From Polaromonas sp. JS666 (lineage in GTDB: Bacteria; Pseudomonadota; Gammaproteobacteria; Burkholderiales; Burkholderiaceae_C): a stretch of 64,000 nucleotides of DNA. The notes beneath the pieces are model-generated. The model ran no database searches. It worked only from the letters and a program-made list of their open reading frames with translations, and had not been told where the DNA came from. The stretch is taken from assembly GCF_000013865.1 (NCBI RefSeq), contig NC_007948.1, positions 4,827,001 through 4,891,000 on the forward strand. The letters are read 5' to 3'. This document shows positions 50,981 through 57,160 of this stretch, in pieces. The position numbers were made by a program, and so were the translations under genes. Position 1 is the first letter of the stretch. Each line of letters opens with the position of its first letter.

Positions 50981-52105
50981 CTAGCCCCGTGCGATCTCCA
51001 CCGGATTGCGCAACCCGCGAGGCGCAGCGGACGGTGCCGCGCACTCCCGGCAGACCATGCCGGCCAGCCGGTGCAGGGCCTGCCAGCCGTCGGCCGGCCA
51101 GTCGGGCTGCTTCAGGCCCTTGACGATGCCGTCGACCTTGTGCGCGGCATGCAGCAGGTTGGCCAGCGTGGTGTCGCCCATCTGGGGCAGCACACGTTCA
51201 AACAGTTTTTCCTTGATGCCCCAGACGCGGTTTTCGCGCAGGGCCATCGGCATGGGCCGGCCGGCCTGGATCGCGTCTTTCACCCGCTTCATGCTGCGGA
51301 TGTCTTCACTCAGCGCCCAGTGCACCAGCACTTCAGACTCGCCCTCGGACTGCAGGCCGTCGAGCATGCGCGCCACGCGCACCGCCTGGCCGCCAAGCAC
51401 GGCCTCCGACAGCTTGAACACGTCATAGCGCGCCACATTCAGCACCGCGTTTTCCACCTGGTCAAAACTGAGGATGCCGTCTTCCTGGGCGGGGTACAGC
51501 AAGCCCAGCTTCTGGATCTCCTGGTGCGCGGCCAGCAGGTTGCCTTCCACCCGGTCGGCAAAAAACTGCAGGGTGCGCTGGCCTTCTTCACCTGCCGCCA
51601 CGCGCTGGCCCTGCTGTTGCAGGCGCTGGGCAATCCATTGCGGCAGGTTGCGCCGGTCAATCGGGTCGAACTTCACCGTGACGCCAAAGCTGTCGAGCGC
51701 GCCAAACCAGGCGCCCTTGGCGGTCATGCTGTCCAGCCGGGGCAGCAGCACCAGCGTGAGCGTGGAGTCGTCGCCCTGGGCGCGCTCGGCCAGCTGCTGC
51801 AGCGCGACCGACCCGTCCTTGCCGGGTTTGCCGCTGGGAATGCGGATCTCGACAATCTGCCTGTCGGCAAACAGGCTCAGCGAGCCGCCACTGGCCAGCA
51901 CCTCGCTCCAGTCGAAATGCGCCCCGGCCACCGTGTGTACGGTGCGTTCGGTGTAGCCCTGCTCCCGGGCCGCCGCGCGCAGGGCATCGGCGAACTCCTG
52001 CACCAGCAAGGGCTCATCGCCATGCAGCGTGTAAAGGCTTTTCAAGCCGCGCTTGAGGTGCTCGGACAGTTGCGCGGGGGCCAGGTTGGAGGGTAGGGAT
52101 ACCAT
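50981..52105 (-). CDS. holA: DNA polymerase III delta subunit
   Basis: Clamp-loader subunit that opens the beta clamp; 374 residues from ATG 52105. The core LKRGLKSLYTLHGDEPLLVQEFADALR is the usual N-terminal start of HolA. The ATG at 52105 lies in domain VI of the upstream group II intron, and the first residues (MVSLPSN) are intron-derived. If the intron splices as proposed (5' site after the ATG at 54889-54891, 3' site near 52085/52084), the native protein would begin M-LAPAQLSEHL. So either the unspliced or the spliced RNA can give an in-frame product. Its normal upstream neighbour lptE is now about 5 kb away. Confidence 0.93.
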   Translation of the reverse strand: MVSLPSNLAPAQLSEHLKRGLKSLYTLHGDEPLLVQEFADALRAAAREQGYTERTVHTVAGAHFDWSEVLASGGSLSLFADRQIVEIRIPSGKPGKDGSVALQQLAERAQGDDSTLTLVLLPRLDSMTAKGAWFGALDSFGVTVKFDPIDRRNLPQWIAQRLQQQGQRVAAGEEGQRTLQFFADRVEGNLLAAHQEIQKLGLLYPAQEDGILSFDQVENAVLNVARYDVFKLSEAVLGGQAVRVARMLDGLQSEGESEVLVHWALSEDIRSMKRVKDAIQAGRPMPMALRENRVWGIKEKLFERVLPQMGDTTLANLLHAAHKVDGIVKGLKQPDWPADGWQALHRLAGMVCRECAAPSAAPRGLRNPVEIARG

Positions 52106-52128
52106 CTCTCGATGATATCCCCCCCATC

Positions 52129-52162
52129 GAACCGAGCTTGCGACTTTCACCGCACACGGCTC
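52129..52162 (-). ncRNA. Group II intron domain V
   Basis: 34-nt catalytic hairpin: stem GAGCCG ... CGGTTC, the inner GTGCG / CGCA stem, a GTGAAAGT loop and an AGC-type catalytic triad in the first strand. It is followed at once by domain VI, as in functional introns. Confidence 0.9.
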
Positions 52163-52177
52163 ACGTACGACCACTGA

Positions 52178-53935
52178 CTACACAGCTTCAACAGGTTGCA
52201 TAACCTTCGACTGCTTCGCCAGATTAAAGTCCCCCGTACCGGGGACCGGCTTGATAACCTTCAAACCTAGGGCGTGGACACGCCTGTGACATACCGGATG
52301 TAACAGCACCCGGTTGGAGAGAGCATCACTCCCTCCAAACTGCCTATAGACGATATGGTGATCGTCCATGTTTTCATCAGCCAAGTCGATTTCTTGCTGA
52401 CAGAGAGCGCATTTACCACCTTGGTCGAACCACAGAGAGGCCCTTTGAGCGCTCCAGATGATTTCACCCATCCTTCGTACTCGCAGTTTCTCTCCGTAGG
52501 CAACCCAGTCCGGGTGGAAGGGGTTGTAATCCCCCTTGACCTTGATGTGCCGGACAATTTTCATGTCCGACAGGAGATACAGCGGCAGCGGTATCCTTTC
52601 ATCACTTCCGGACGGGTCATCCTGCAATCCCGCGAATTGTTTGCGTGAACCACACTGTTTCCAGTAATGGCCGTACACCCAGCCCGCCGTCTTGCGCGGA
52701 TGCGTTCGCAAGCCCCAGCGCATCAGTCTCCAATAAATCAGAAAATCCATTTTGCTGAAAGTCTGTTTTGCAACCGTGCCCTTGTGGTACTGAGCCCAAC
52801 CTTTGAGGATTGGGTTCAGGCGCTTTATCAACGTTTCTACCGGAACCTTCGATAGCGATTCAACGATTTCCTTTTTTACCTTGGCATAGAACGCTTTCAC
52901 GTTTTTCTGGCTCGGTTTGATGAGTAGCTTGCCCCCGTATTTACGGAAGTTCCACCCCAGAAAATCAAAACCTTGGTCAATGTGCACAATGCGCGTCTTT
53001 TCCTGGTTCAGTGTCAACCCCCGCTCGCGCAGGAATTCAACAATCCAAGGTCGGACGGTCGTCTCAAGGAAGTCTTTTGAACTACCCGTTATCACGAAGT
53101 CATCTGCGTACCTTACCAAGTTCACCTTCACCTTTTCTGCCTGCTTGACGCCCAACTTTTCCCGGAGGAATTGCGTGAGCCCCGTTTCCAAACCATTCAG
53201 GGTGATGTTCGCTAACGCCGGCGAGATGACCCCGCCCTGCGGCGTACCGTCATCCGTGCGCTGGAGCTGACCCGCGTCAACGACTCCAGATTTCAACCAC
53301 TTGCGCAGCATCACCTTGTCCATGTGGACGTGGTTCAGCAGCCACTCGTGGTTGATGTTGTCAAAGAACCCAGAGATGTCCGCATCCAATACCCATTGGG
53401 CCGAAGCCTTTTGGGATAGTGTTACGAACAGCTGGCTCCGCGCATCATGTGTTGATCGCCCTTTCCGAAAGCCGTAGCTGTTCGGGTCAGACGCACATTC
53501 CACAGCCGGTTCCAGCGCAAGCAGATAAAGTGCTTGCATCGCTCTGTCCTTCATAGTCGGCATGCCCAGGGGGCGTTCCTTTCCGCCGGCCTTCGGGATA
53601 TAGACCCGCCTTAGGGGGCGAGCCCGATACCCTTTGGGGTTCAGACAACCTATCGCATTCCATTTCTTTGTTGGCGTGTCCCAAAGTACGTAATCGACGC
53701 CACTCGTTCGCTTCCCTTGGTTTTCCGTTACTCTCCTGACGGCCAATGCCTTGGCTTGCCAGGATCGAATCAAACCCCTTCCGAGTCTTGCGACTCGTCG
53801 GAAGTCCTTTTCTGCTTCTGCCTGCGCTATGCGCATCTGCGCCTTTCCTACGAATTGCATGACGGCTTTCCAATCGATGGAGTGCCATTCACTTGATTCG
53901 CCCGGAGACGCAGCATCCTTTCGGATGTGTTCCAT
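52178..53935 (-). CDS. ltrA: Group II intron reverse transcriptase/maturase with HNH endonuclease
   Basis: 585 residues from ATG 53935 (TGGAG 7 nt upstream); the frame stays open to 54046, but that is intron domain sequence. The RT domain carries RRVYIPKAGGKERPLGMPTMKDR, DADISGFFDNINHEWL, TPQGGVISPALANI and the catalytic YADD (LVRYADDFVITG). A maturase X domain follows (about 360-440), and a C-terminal HNH nuclease is seen as CALCQQEIDL...DDHHIVYRQFGG...LHPVCHRRVH. All key residues are present, so splicing and retrohoming competence is likely. Base composition is lower in GC than in flanking genes. Confidence 0.95.
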   Translation of the reverse strand: MEHIRKDAASPGESSEWHSIDWKAVMQFVGKAQMRIAQAEAEKDFRRVARLGRGLIRSWQAKALAVRRVTENQGKRTSGVDYVLWDTPTKKWNAIGCLNPKGYRARPLRRVYIPKAGGKERPLGMPTMKDRAMQALYLLALEPAVECASDPNSYGFRKGRSTHDARSQLFVTLSQKASAQWVLDADISGFFDNINHEWLLNHVHMDKVMLRKWLKSGVVDAGQLQRTDDGTPQGGVISPALANITLNGLETGLTQFLREKLGVKQAEKVKVNLVRYADDFVITGSSKDFLETTVRPWIVEFLRERGLTLNQEKTRIVHIDQGFDFLGWNFRKYGGKLLIKPSQKNVKAFYAKVKKEIVESLSKVPVETLIKRLNPILKGWAQYHKGTVAKQTFSKMDFLIYWRLMRWGLRTHPRKTAGWVYGHYWKQCGSRKQFAGLQDDPSGSDERIPLPLYLLSDMKIVRHIKVKGDYNPFHPDWVAYGEKLRVRRMGEIIWSAQRASLWFDQGGKCALCQQEIDLADENMDDHHIVYRQFGGSDALSNRVLLHPVCHRRVHALGLKVIKPVPGTGDFNLAKQSKVMQPVEAV

Positions 53936-54696
53936 ACCATTCTCCAGTGAGGTTGACCCATTGAAGAAGGCACTGACCCAGAGGGTCAGATACCCTCTGG
54001 GTCGTTGACAAGTCGCAACGGCTTTACGCTGTCGCACCTGAGGCAAGTCTGCCGGCTTTCACCGCAGGTCATGAGCCCTATCCTGTCCATTACAGACAGG
54101 CATTTGCTTTTTGCCTCTTCCTCTACCCCCTCCACCATGGCCCTTGATTACTCGCAGGTTGCCAACCCCTTGCGGGGCTGGCGGTGAGTGGGGCTTACCT
54201 CGTTTCCCTCTGTGCCCAGTCTGGTGGCTGCCAGACCGATGGGGTTAGGGACTCTCTATCCACCGGAAGTCGTTTGGGAACGATGCGCAGTCCATGACAG
54301 GCGCATCCTGACTTCGTGCCTTTTGGCCGCAGCTCCTCCCTTGTGGGAGAGACAAGCGTTAGCTGCTCACTTCTAGCGATGGTTCGAACGAGAGTTCACA
54401 TTACATTTCCCATACCCTATACCTCGGCAACCTTCCCGCGTCTTGTTCGTGGGATTGGGACTGACTCACGTCAGCCTTGTGTGCTTGCGCACGGGTTGTT
54501 TAACCGTAGCTCCGCACCCCCGGATTACTCCAGACGCACGTACGGTCGAGGTCACGTCGTTCCAGACGTGGTTTTGGTGGAAAACAAGACACAGAGAGCG
54601 GTAGCGCTCTCATTACCAGTACTTCCCATTGCAAAGTTATTTGCAACAAGAGGCAACAAAGCCTTTCCTTGCGGAAATATGTCTCTAATTGGCAAC

Positions 54697-54723
54697 GAAT
54701 TGCGTCCCTTAGGGACGCAATTC
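54697..54723. repeat. Perfect 12-bp stem hairpin in the 5' part of the intron
   Basis: GAATTGCGTCCC - TTA - GGGACGCAATTC. Two further perfect hairpins are nearby: GAGAGCG-GTAG-CGCTCTC (54594-54611) and GCGACT-TCG-AGTCGC (54872-54886). They may be domain I stems. They could also be terminator-like structures, in which case the intron would begin further in. Confidence 0.6.
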
Positions 54724-54888
54724 ACCATTACCGCACCCTGAAAGCGCGGGCTGGAGCAGCCAAATTAGAGCCATTTGGCTGCTACAAAGTTAACCCTTTT
54801 GAGGGGGCTGAATGGAACCTCCTGAGAGGGAAACCATCCACTGATAAAGACGATCACAAGGATCGAATGAAGCGACTTCGAGTCGCAC

Positions 54889-55151
54889 CATGGCTGAAGT
54901 TTAGCGCCCTCTGTCCGTGGGCCGGAATGGGTGGAACCCATCAAAATGACAATTTTTTCTGCCACTTTGATCGATTAACCGCTTAAATTGCAAGGTTTTC
55001 TGTCTTTTCTTTATCACCGCTCCTTCAGACAATGGAGCCTTGAACGGGTTTGAGGGGGCCTGAATGGGCGACATCCCCTGTTCCCGCCCGGGAAGCCGCC
55101 CGCCATCGACACCGCACAGGCGACACCGTGCAGACACAAGAAAGACAGACC
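54889..55151. other. Region between the intron and the ornithine cyclodeaminase gene
   Basis: 263 bp. The left side holds the proposed 5' exon of holA (ATG read on the minus strand at 54891-54889) without an obvious ribosome site. The middle is A/T-rich (AAAATGACAATTTTTTCTGCC near 54943-54963), reminiscent of IS or transposon ends, but no partner end was found. The right side must hold the + strand promoter of the arginine-catabolism genes. Confidence 0.4.
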
Positions 55152-56249
55152 ATGGTTGACTATATTGGCATTGCAAACATCCAGAAAATGGTGGGCGCGC
55201 TGGGCCCCGCTGTATTCATTGAGGGCCTGGCCGCCGAAATCGAGGCCGACTACCGGCGCTGGGGGGAATTTGACAAGTCCGCCCGCCACGCCATTCATTC
55301 ACCGGTGGGTGTCATCGAGTTGATGCCGACCAGCGACGGCCAGATGTACTCCTTCAAGTATGTCAACGGTCATCCCAAAAACACCGCGCTCGGCCTGCTC
55401 ACAGTCACCGCCTTTGGTGTTCTGGCGGACGTCAAGACCGGCTACCCGCTGCTGCTGTCCGAGCTGACGGTCACCACCGCGTTGCGCACGGCGGCCATGT
55501 CGGCGCTGGCCGCGCGCTGGATGGCACGGCCGGACAGCCGCGTCATGGCGCTGATCGGCAATGGCGCGCAAAGCGAATTCCAGGCCATCGCGTTCCACCA
55601 CATGCTGGGCATTCGGGAGATACGGCTCCATGACGTGGACCGCAAGGCAATGGACAAGCTGGCGCGCAACCTTCACGAACTGGGCCTGCGCGACCTGCAG
55701 GTCAGGCTGTGCAAGTCTGCCGCCGACGCCGTGCAGGGCGCCGACGTTGTCACCACCGTCACAGCCGACAAACGCAATGCCATCATCCTGACCCCCGAGA
55801 TGATTGCGCCCGGCATGCATCTGAACGCCGTGGGAGGCGACTGCCCGGGCAAGACCGAGTTGCACGCCGACATCCTGCGGCGCACCGACGCACGCGTGAT
55901 CGTGGAGTACGAGCCCCAGTCGCGCATTGAAGGCGAGATCCAGCAAATGCCGGCCGACTTTGCGGTGACGGAGTTTGCCCAGGTACTCAGCGGTGAGGCC
56001 GCCGGCCGCGCCTCGCCGGCTGAAGTGACGATTTTTGACTCGGTGGGCTTCGCGCTGGAGGATTACTCGGCCCTGCGCTATTTGTATAAACTGCAGCAGG
56101 TGCAAAGCCTGCGCCAGGAGATCGATTTGGTTCCCGATCTGGACAATCCGAAAAACCTGTTTGGCCTGTTGGCAGCCGCCCCCGGGGGCACAACCCAGGC
56201 GGCCCCGGGACTGGTCAAACCCTTCGCTGCCGAATTGACCTCGACATGA
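55152..56249 (+). CDS. Ornithine cyclodeaminase
   Basis: NAD-dependent conversion of ornithine to proline and ammonia; ornithine cyclodeaminase/mu-crystallin family, 365 residues. The start is ATG 55152 (MVDYIGIANIQ); upstream codons to 55050 are unlike the family. RHAIHSPVGVIELMP and the Rossmann stretch MALIGNGAQSEFQAIAFHHMLGI are visible, and NAVGGDCPGKTELHADIL contains the catalytic Asp region. The 3' end overlaps the arginase start (ATGA), so the pair forms one unit turning arginine into proline. Confidence 0.92.
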   Translation: MVDYIGIANIQKMVGALGPAVFIEGLAAEIEADYRRWGEFDKSARHAIHSPVGVIELMPTSDGQMYSFKYVNGHPKNTALGLLTVTAFGVLADVKTGYPLLLSELTVTTALRTAAMSALAARWMARPDSRVMALIGNGAQSEFQAIAFHHMLGIREIRLHDVDRKAMDKLARNLHELGLRDLQVRLCKSAADAVQGADVVTTVTADKRNAIILTPEMIAPGMHLNAVGGDCPGKTELHADILRRTDARVIVEYEPQSRIEGEIQQMPADFAVTEFAQVLSGEAAGRASPAEVTIFDSVGFALEDYSALRYLYKLQQVQSLRQEIDLVPDLDNPKNLFGLLAAAPGGTTQAAPGLVKPFAAELTST

Positions 56250-57160
56250 CCAGACGCATCCGGCTGATTGGCGCCCCGACCGACATTGGCGCCAGTACCC
56301 GAGGCTCGTCCATGGGCCCAGAAGCGCTGCGCGTCGCGGGACTGCAGGCAACGCTGGAAGGCCACGGCCTGACCGTCGCGGACCAGGGCAATCTGGTGGG
56401 ACCGGCCAACCCCTGGCAAGCATCCGTTAACGGCTACCGCCACCTGGCCGAAGTGGCTGCGTGGAACCGTTCGGTGCATGAGGCCGTGCATACCGCGCTC
56501 AGCGAAAACGACATGCCGATTTTGCTGGGAGGCGACCATTGCCTGGCCATTGGCTCCATCAGCGCGGTGGCGCGCCACTGCCGCAAGACCGGTCAGAACC
56601 TGCGCGTGCTGTGGCTGGACGCCCATGCCGACTTCAACACCAACGACCTGACGCCCACCGGCAACACGCACGGCATGCCGGTGGCCGTGCTGTGCGGCCA
56701 CGGGCCTGCCGAGCTGACCGGCATAGGCGGCGTGGTGCCCGCCATCCAGCCCTCGGCCGTGCGGCAGATCGGCATCCGCAGCGTGGACCAGGGCGAAAAG
56801 CGCTTTGTCCGGGAATTGGGCCTCGAAGTGTTCGACATGCGTTACATCGACGAAATGGGCATGCGCCACACCATGCAGGCGGCACTGGCCGGCATGGACG
56901 ACAACACCCACCTGCATGTGAGTTTTGATGTCGACTTTCTGGACGCCTCGTTTGCGCCCGGTGTGGGCACCGCCGTCAAGGGTGGGCCGACCTACCGCGA
57001 GGCCCAGCTGTGCATGGAGATGATTGCCGACACCGGCCGGCTGGCATCGCTGGATGTGATGGAGCTCAACCCGGCGCTGGATGTGCGCAACGGCACGGCC
57101 GAAGTGGCACTGGACCTGATGGAAAGCCTGTTCGGCAAGAGCACGCTGATGCGGCGCTAG
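56246..57160 (+). CDS. rocF: Arginase
   Basis: Mn-dependent hydrolysis of L-arginine to ornithine and urea, 304 residues. Metal ligands are His98 (GGDHCLAIGS), Asp125/His127/Asp129 (DAHADFN) and Asp228/Asp230 (SFDVDFLD); ELNPALD follows. True arginase rather than agmatinase or formiminoglutamase is favoured by the TPTGNTHGMP segment. It is translationally coupled to ornithine cyclodeaminase and converges on lptE, with both stop codons inside one hairpin. Confidence 0.92.
   Translation: MTRRIRLIGAPTDIGASTRGSSMGPEALRVAGLQATLEGHGLTVADQGNLVGPANPWQASVNGYRHLAEVAAWNRSVHEAVHTALSENDMPILLGGDHCLAIGSISAVARHCRKTGQNLRVLWLDAHADFNTNDLTPTGNTHGMPVAVLCGHGPAELTGIGGVVPAIQPSAVRQIGIRSVDQGEKRFVRELGLEVFDMRYIDEMGMRHTMQAALAGMDDNTHLHVSFDVDFLDASFAPGVGTAVKGGPTYREAQLCMEMIADTGRLASLDVMELNPALDVRNGTAEVALDLMESLFGKSTLMRR

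Follow-up and report, generated by a model that had tools for sequence, protein, structure and literature searches.

Introns located at stop codons, such as the one in Azotobacter groEL, illustrate how an element that inserts at a codon boundary can leave a housekeeping gene unharmed. The intron RmInt1, whose protein has no endonuclease domain, targets an insertion element. The accessible text of a 2015 review recognizes three kinds of target for bacterial group II introns, namely homing sites, terminators and attC (PMC4424553). According to the same text, class C introns follow terminators or attC, operate without an endonuclease, and form a lineage with a target class rather than one gene site. 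Relatives of the TeI4h intron proliferate as families with different EBS elements. The insertion sites given in the accessible part of that study fall in a tRNA gene, the ORF of an intron, an insertion element and intergenic DNA, and promoters are not among them (PMC2882425). The accessible main text of a 2022 census, which measures the distance to terminators, does not contain the word 'promoter' (PMC8919778). No report of a promoter-targeting group II intron was found in searches of the open-access literature, although this does not prove that none exists.

The window analyzed here is a stretch of 64,000 nt from the genome of Polaromonas sp. JS666. On its minus strand, a group II intron of 2801 nt separates the ATG of holA from the rest of the gene (Table 1). 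Azotobacter groEL-type introns reside at the stop codon, whereas this one resides at the start codon. The initial annotation had placed an intron directly after the holA start codon, and this is borne out by two Rfam matches, a reverse transcriptase/maturase frame and the intron-free holA genes of relatives. RF02012 matches the D1-D4 core (54571-54428, minus strand, 62.4 bits) and RF00029 matches D5/D6 (52164-52088, minus strand, 60.7 bits). Both matches exceed their gathering cutoffs. The GTGCG at 54888 provides the GUGYG feature found at the 5' ends of group II introns. Six GTGCG motifs occur from the maturase start to position 55100 and, as first noted, this one alone is preceded by ATG.

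The 3' end of the intron is assigned to position 52088 because relatives read ATG-AAC-CTG at the start of holA. The frame downstream of the intron is recognized as holA by TIGR01128 and is the single holA match in the genome. In relatives this gene is uninterrupted and starts at the equivalent ATG, with ATG-AAC/AAT-CT or ATG-CAA/CAG as its first bases, as expected for uninvaded copies. The AAC at 52087-52085 is assigned to holA because these relatives are uninterrupted and because four intron copies in the genome share GTGCGAC...CTACCCTCC and differ outside. An intron end at 52085, as originally annotated, is thus 3 nt off, and is ruled out by the RF00029 boundary, the holA genes of relatives, and the divergence of genomic copies after CTACCCTCC. 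On splicing at these boundaries, the joined protein would begin M-N-LAPAQLSEHLKRGL (M-N-LAPAQ) rather than M-LAPAQ.

The intron lacks the AY that ends group II introns and terminates in TCC. Among 69 introns with the clade 3' end (defined below), six end in TAC, and sister-clade introns mostly end in GAC, GAT or AAC. The missing AY is treated as a variable feature and is not taken as grounds for exclusion. In its other tested core features the element is a group II intron, and what seems new is its target class, which was not found reported.

Two further observations concern the surroundings and interior of this intron. A 27-nt stretch (54697-54723 of the window) matches its own opposite strand, and therefore could form a hairpin. 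Between lptE and holA, the window carries two opposite-strand genes (55050-57160, plus strand) that resemble ornithine cyclodeaminase and arginase by eye. In several relatives, unlike in the window, holA directly follows an lptE-like end.

Table 1. Features of the holA intron and its insertion site (window positions)
Feature	Position	Strand	Basis
Group II intron, GTGCGAC...CTACCCTCC	52088..54888	-	Rfam matches, other genomic copies, intron-free holA in relatives
Intron-encoded protein (reverse transcriptase, maturase domain, HNH)	52178..53935	-	TIGR04416, PF00078, PF08388, PF01844
holA start codon ATG, end of 5' exon	54889..54891	-	Sequence and relatives
holA without its ATG (3' exon, from AAC)	50981..52087	-	TIGR01128; relatives
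Domain V, 34 nt	52129..52162	-	RF00029
Presumed branch-point A, bulged in domain VI, seventh base before 3' exon (counting back from intron end)	52094	-	Fold; role presumed
EBS1 (CATGG), loop of hairpin GATGCGC...GCGCATC	54292..54296	-	Pairing; hairpin fold z = -3.4
EBS2 (GAAGT)	54369..54373	-	5/5 pairing with IBS2
IBS1 (CCATG)	54889..54893	-	5/5 pairing with EBS1 CATGG
IBS2 (ACTTC), overlapping last three hexamer bases	54896..54900	-	5/5 pairing with EBS2 GAAGT
-10-like hexamer TAAACT, 9 nt before intron, 6 nt before ATG	54898..54903	-	Sequence; conserved at other sites
ATG in domain VI, holA frame (ATG GTA TCC CTA CCC TCC, then AAC)	52103..52105	-	Sequence; start-codon role putative

The intron-encoded protein is an uninterrupted frame of 585 aa, located in domain IV, that combines reverse transcriptase, maturase and HNH endonuclease (PF01844) domains. 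Its TIGR04416 match scores 375 bits against a cutoff of 300. The closest solved structure is 6me0_C (E 4.9e-165), which we take to be TeI4h of Thermosynechococcus elongatus. The intron is therefore described as TeI4h-like and of the IIB/CL1 class, a name based on this likeness and the HNH domain. The features of class C terminator introns are different (PMC4424553, accessible text), in that the lineage of the holA intron is marked by a -10-like hexamer, the holA intron protein has an HNH domain, and no terminator was found before the intron. One weak terminator-like match (54865-54851) is inside it instead.

The four intron copies in the Polaromonas sp. JS666 genome are 100, 92, 91 and 86% identical to the query, and the presence of several nearly identical copies at separate loci suggests that the element has moved in the past. 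They follow the hexamers TAAACT, TAGAAT, TACAAT and TAAACT, and in each case six nucleotides separate the hexamer from an ATG (three copies) or an ATTG (one copy). It is true that holA is split after its ATG, as a one-off insertion with no wider rule would have it. However, the three further copies, and copies in other genomes, obey the same hexamer rule at other genes. This refutes a one-off event as a full account and leaves it next to no probability.

Relatives were collected in searches with the protein (the best 80 of 385 taken), with intron DNA within the genus (9 of 87 genomes), and with a 3'-end pattern applied to the family (17 of 399 genomes) and the order (7 of 399 genomes), the last two being samples of larger groups. 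All of these searches are blind to the insertion site. The family 3'-end search yielded 30 places, of which 21 were used; four are Polaromonas sp. JS666's own and five, all of one genome (G424), are too close to a contig start to include a 5' end. Among plasmids, 314 records match and none spans 80% of the intron. In total, 69 introns carry the clade 3' end (rule CTACC[CT]TNC), of which 52 come with a 5' flank of 60 nt or more. Sixteen without a 5' end were excluded, as was L047, which has a flank of 6 nt. Clustering of the flanks at 55% identity reduces the 52 copies to 32 distinct sites.

The start codon is not a lineage-wide rule. The constant element is a -10-like hexamer located 9-12 nt upstream of the intron, which the initial annotation had missed. 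TAnnnT occurs in this position at 30 of the 32 distinct sites (50 of the 52 copies), and the two exceptions carry CACAAT (L045) and CATAAT (L046). For each of the other spacings between 0 and 54, it is found at one site at most, and flank composition predicts 0.7% per position. Among the 30 hexamers, where T1, A2 and T6 are fixed by the search pattern, A occupies position 4 in 21 cases and position 5 in 22, with C at position 5 in a further seven. Over all 32 sites, T1 is present in 30 and both A2 and T6 in 32. Three introns that fall outside the 69-intron rule or have one end only (L063, L080 and L044) carry TATAAT, TATACT and TATGGT at spacings of 11, 10 and 9, respectively.

In a tree of 102 proteins made with a quick method, the hexamer-bearing introns occupy one side of a branch with an SH-aLRT of 100. 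L063 and L080, which had been labeled as outgroup, belong to this side. The sister clade is represented by 46 introns, 19 of them without a located 5' end, and TAnnnT precedes none of the other 27. Five sister-clade introns (L078, L081, L085, L095 and L100) directly follow TAA or TAG, as if at stop codons. Within the hexamer clade, introns that split off an ATG form one subclade of 32 rows (SH-aLRT 100), while other members are located in gene leaders, before a tRNA or before a riboswitch. The ATG was rejected as a feature recognized throughout the lineage, because 17 of the 32 distinct sites end in something other than ATG and because EBS1 changes along with the site.

The hexamer is also present where the intron is absent. 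It occurs upstream of holA in 18 of the 25 relatives that could be parsed (from 29), and upstream of pyrF in all 17 parsed (from 29, leaving out the genome's own intron-bearing copy). Six of the seven relatives without a hexamer at holA have an lptE-like end just upstream, as judged by eye. By this comparison, the hexamer is evidently older than the intron.

Some gene starts are occupied in several genomes (L036-L039, L048-L050 and L052; L002 and L040), among them that of guaB (L063, L066, L067, L070, L071, L076, L165 and L174). The introns at shared gene starts are sometimes quite divergent. Compared with the holA intron, L039 and L040 are 68-69% identical and L036-L038 are 85% identical. Such shared occupancy could reflect either repeated invasion or old inheritance.

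Part of the target is matched by intron RNA. EBS1 is a five-nucleotide loop that pairs with exon positions -5 to -1, and 97.4% of cells are paired at the 23 of 32 sites that have those columns. Loop and site covary, for example CATGG/CCATG, CAATA/TATTG, CATGC/GCATG, TGAAT/ATTCA, GGAAA/TTTCC and CATCT/AGATG. The partner of EBS2 consists of the last three hexamer bases plus two more. EBS2 was located at 30 of the 32 sites, with 22 fully paired and a mean of 4.5 of 5, while 1000 within-class shuffles gave at most 10 fully paired. In L066, L173 and L178 the rule chose a wrong position for the loop, and these were counted as low scores; in L064 and L179 it found no loop. EBS2 is more variable than 86% of windows, yet other stretches are more variable still, and its description as a hypervariable loop was dropped. 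For EBS3-IBS3, the best column pairs with +1 in no more than 65% of sites. Because EBS1 and EBS2 each pair 5/5 with the 5' exon of holA and covary over the lineage, the match at that site is not a matter of chance.

T1 and A2 of the hexamer come shortly before IBS2, and no intron bases were identified that pair with them. The TeI4h protein reads one or two bases in this place (A-15, C-16; PMC2882425, accessible text). The RmInt1 protein contacts G-16 and T-15 next to IBS2 (PMC8914252, accessible text), which is the position of T-A in the holA lineage. By analogy, T1-A2 are presumably read by the intron protein.

The units behind the introns include the starts of the housekeeping genes pyrF, hemB, guaB, argH, secB, ribF and rpsO. 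A profile search of the downstream units, in which several matches fall below the curated cutoff, identified KdsD, PyrF, RadC, CcsB-like, HemB, transglycosylase, YceD, HemJ, AmgK, nucleoside bisphosphate phosphatase, ArgH, IMP dehydrogenase, Ndk, DapA, UbiE, an AmpG-family transporter, M48 protease, BamE-like, CinA-like, MlaE-like, SecB, RibF, YjgA, NadC, HemX-like and S15. It assigned no family to L041 or to the tested frame of L177. At one site in two genomes (L163, L164) the intron is followed by tRNA-Leu. At L176, a SAH riboswitch (56.6 bits, gathering cutoff 37) begins within the last five intron bases, a placement predicted for an intron that enters where a leader begins. From the hexamer spacing, the tRNA and the riboswitch, we infer that transcription starts just before the intron.

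The strength of this gene context differs between site types. Among sites of the non-ATG type, 13 of 17 are followed 13-34 nt downstream (searched within 60 nt) by a frame that opens with ATG and runs for 120 codons or more, compared with 283 of 1247 background TAnnnT sites and 11 of 30 consensus-like TA[TC]AAT sites. The other four precede rpsO, tRNA-Leu, secB and the SAH riboswitch. An open frame of at least 100 codons follows 14 of 15 ATG sites versus 17 of 27 background TAnnnT-N6-ATG sites. With a stricter limit of 40 open codons upstream, the counts become 10 of 15 and 15 of 27. In the ATG class, gene context contributes little further evidence because the background TAnnnT-N6-ATG sites are themselves mostly at gene starts.

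A -35 signal was not found at the intron sites, where the score is -0.45 versus -0.23 in shuffles, and 211 of 300 shuffles reach the intron-site score. There is no TTGACA peak at fixed spacing upstream of these sites, and neither a full sigma-70 consensus nor a -35 element was found at holA. Twelve native gene starts of the same form do show a -35 signal (1.46 versus -0.48).

The missing -35 signal is compatible with the main rival explanation, in which the RNP can enter any site that suits EBS1, EBS2 and a few bases read by the protein, and copies just behind promoters are the ones that persist because they are transcribed and the gene is spared. Each site is indeed fitted by EBS1 and EBS2, and TAnnnT-N6-ATG is mostly found at gene starts anyway. 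Survivorship of this kind should nevertheless leave copies at neutral sites elsewhere. None of the 52 copies is away from a -10-like hexamer (counting the two near matches), and the spacing between hexamer and intron is tight. We consider this explanation unlikely.

The pattern is probably best explained by a lineage of TeI4h-like mobile group II introns, mainly from Burkholderiales, whose DNA target is the -10/transcription-start region of promoters. Its RNP would divide the reading of this target among three components. The protein would recognize T-A, EBS2 would pair with hexamer positions 4-6 and two further bases, and EBS1 would pair with exon positions -5 to -1. Insertion 9-12 nt behind the hexamer would be a few nucleotides past the presumed transcription start, and the host promoter would therefore transcribe the intron from near its 5' end. 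In genes with a leader, the ribosome site would stay downstream and splicing would be unnecessary. At holA, 6 nt separate the -10 box from the ATG, and so the start codon is split off by the intron. Rescue might then come from splicing, which would join AUG to AAC CUG, from the in-frame domain VI AUG carried by most members of the subclade, or from both.

Reading of the -10 box by protein plus RNA would be the simplest mechanism. A bolder one is that polymerase melts the -10 region and the RNP enters the opened non-template strand, such that the hexamer marks the bubble. The bases in common, T1, A2 and T6, are the hallmark bases of -10 elements, the first two have no identified partner in the intron RNA, and IBS1 and IBS2 would be in or beside the bubble. 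However, bound polymerase could block access, and the sites show no -35 signal. T1-A2 could equally be read by protein, as in the TeI4h and RmInt1 examples (PMC2882425, PMC8914252; accessible text). We consider capture of an open complex improbable.

A more specific version of the promoter reading can be offered tentatively, with slightly less than even confidence, in which the promoter itself is the homing site. The RNP would dock on the -10 box, possibly in polymerase-opened DNA, and copies would capture housekeeping promoters. The 5' exon would be some 3-6 nt long, and IBS2 would serve DNA targeting and not splicing. The start-codon subclade would bring its own in-frame AUG in domain VI, permitting expression with or without splicing.

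As the initial annotation had stated, the ATG at 52105-52103 near the intron 3' end shares the holA frame; there is no stop between the two, and the product would read MVSLPS-N.... Among 26 distinct D6 sequences of the ATG class, 18 have an ATG in frame 0 (at -15, -18 or -21), six in frame 1 and five in frame 2. For these counts, 13 rows without a 5' end were classed as ATG type by an open frame of at least 150 codons. The 23 distinct D6 sequences of the other class have an ATG in frame 0 in six cases, frame 1 in two and frame 2 in 14. Four of those six are ATTG introns nested within the ATG subclade. Thus, the in-frame D6 ATG looks like a derived start, although part of the frame bias may be due to shared descent.

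Expression of holA might even be independent of splicing, with translation from the domain VI ATG only. The frame counts agree with this, as does the short 5' exon. The hexamer is six nucleotides from the ATG, so transcription is expected to start at or near the AUG. With a 5' exon RNA of about 3 nt, splicing from holA's promoter may therefore be weak. Against exclusive use of the domain VI ATG, eight of the 26 distinct ATG-class D6 sequences have no frame-0 ATG (including the nadC copy L171, L170 and L173), for which reason it was rejected as a universal feature. Moreover, no well-placed ribosome site was identified before it, and the frame bias may partly reflect descent. Exclusive use is somewhat doubtful, and it is plausible that holA is expressed with or without splicing.

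Other members of the subclade show different arrangements. The radC leader introns L004, L056, L061 and L072 follow ATTG, are nested in the ATG subclade, and retain the D6 ATG with a TAG at once in the exon. The pyrF intron (L003; G000:C1:4896819-4899622, about 5.8 kb past the window end) is flanked on both sides by the 12-nt sequence AATAAGCCCATG, the span from IBS2 to IBS1. This duplication restores pyrF's own ATG behind the intron. Target duplication of this type is unusual for group II introns.

If the promoter specificity is true, it raises the questions of whether the RNP reads the -10 element or a melted promoter, how splicing proceeds with a 5' exon of a few nucleotides, and whether a ribozyme domain can double as a start codon. 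It would constitute a fourth target class of bacterial group II introns, and it would explain how a retroelement can live before essential genes while staying transcribed.
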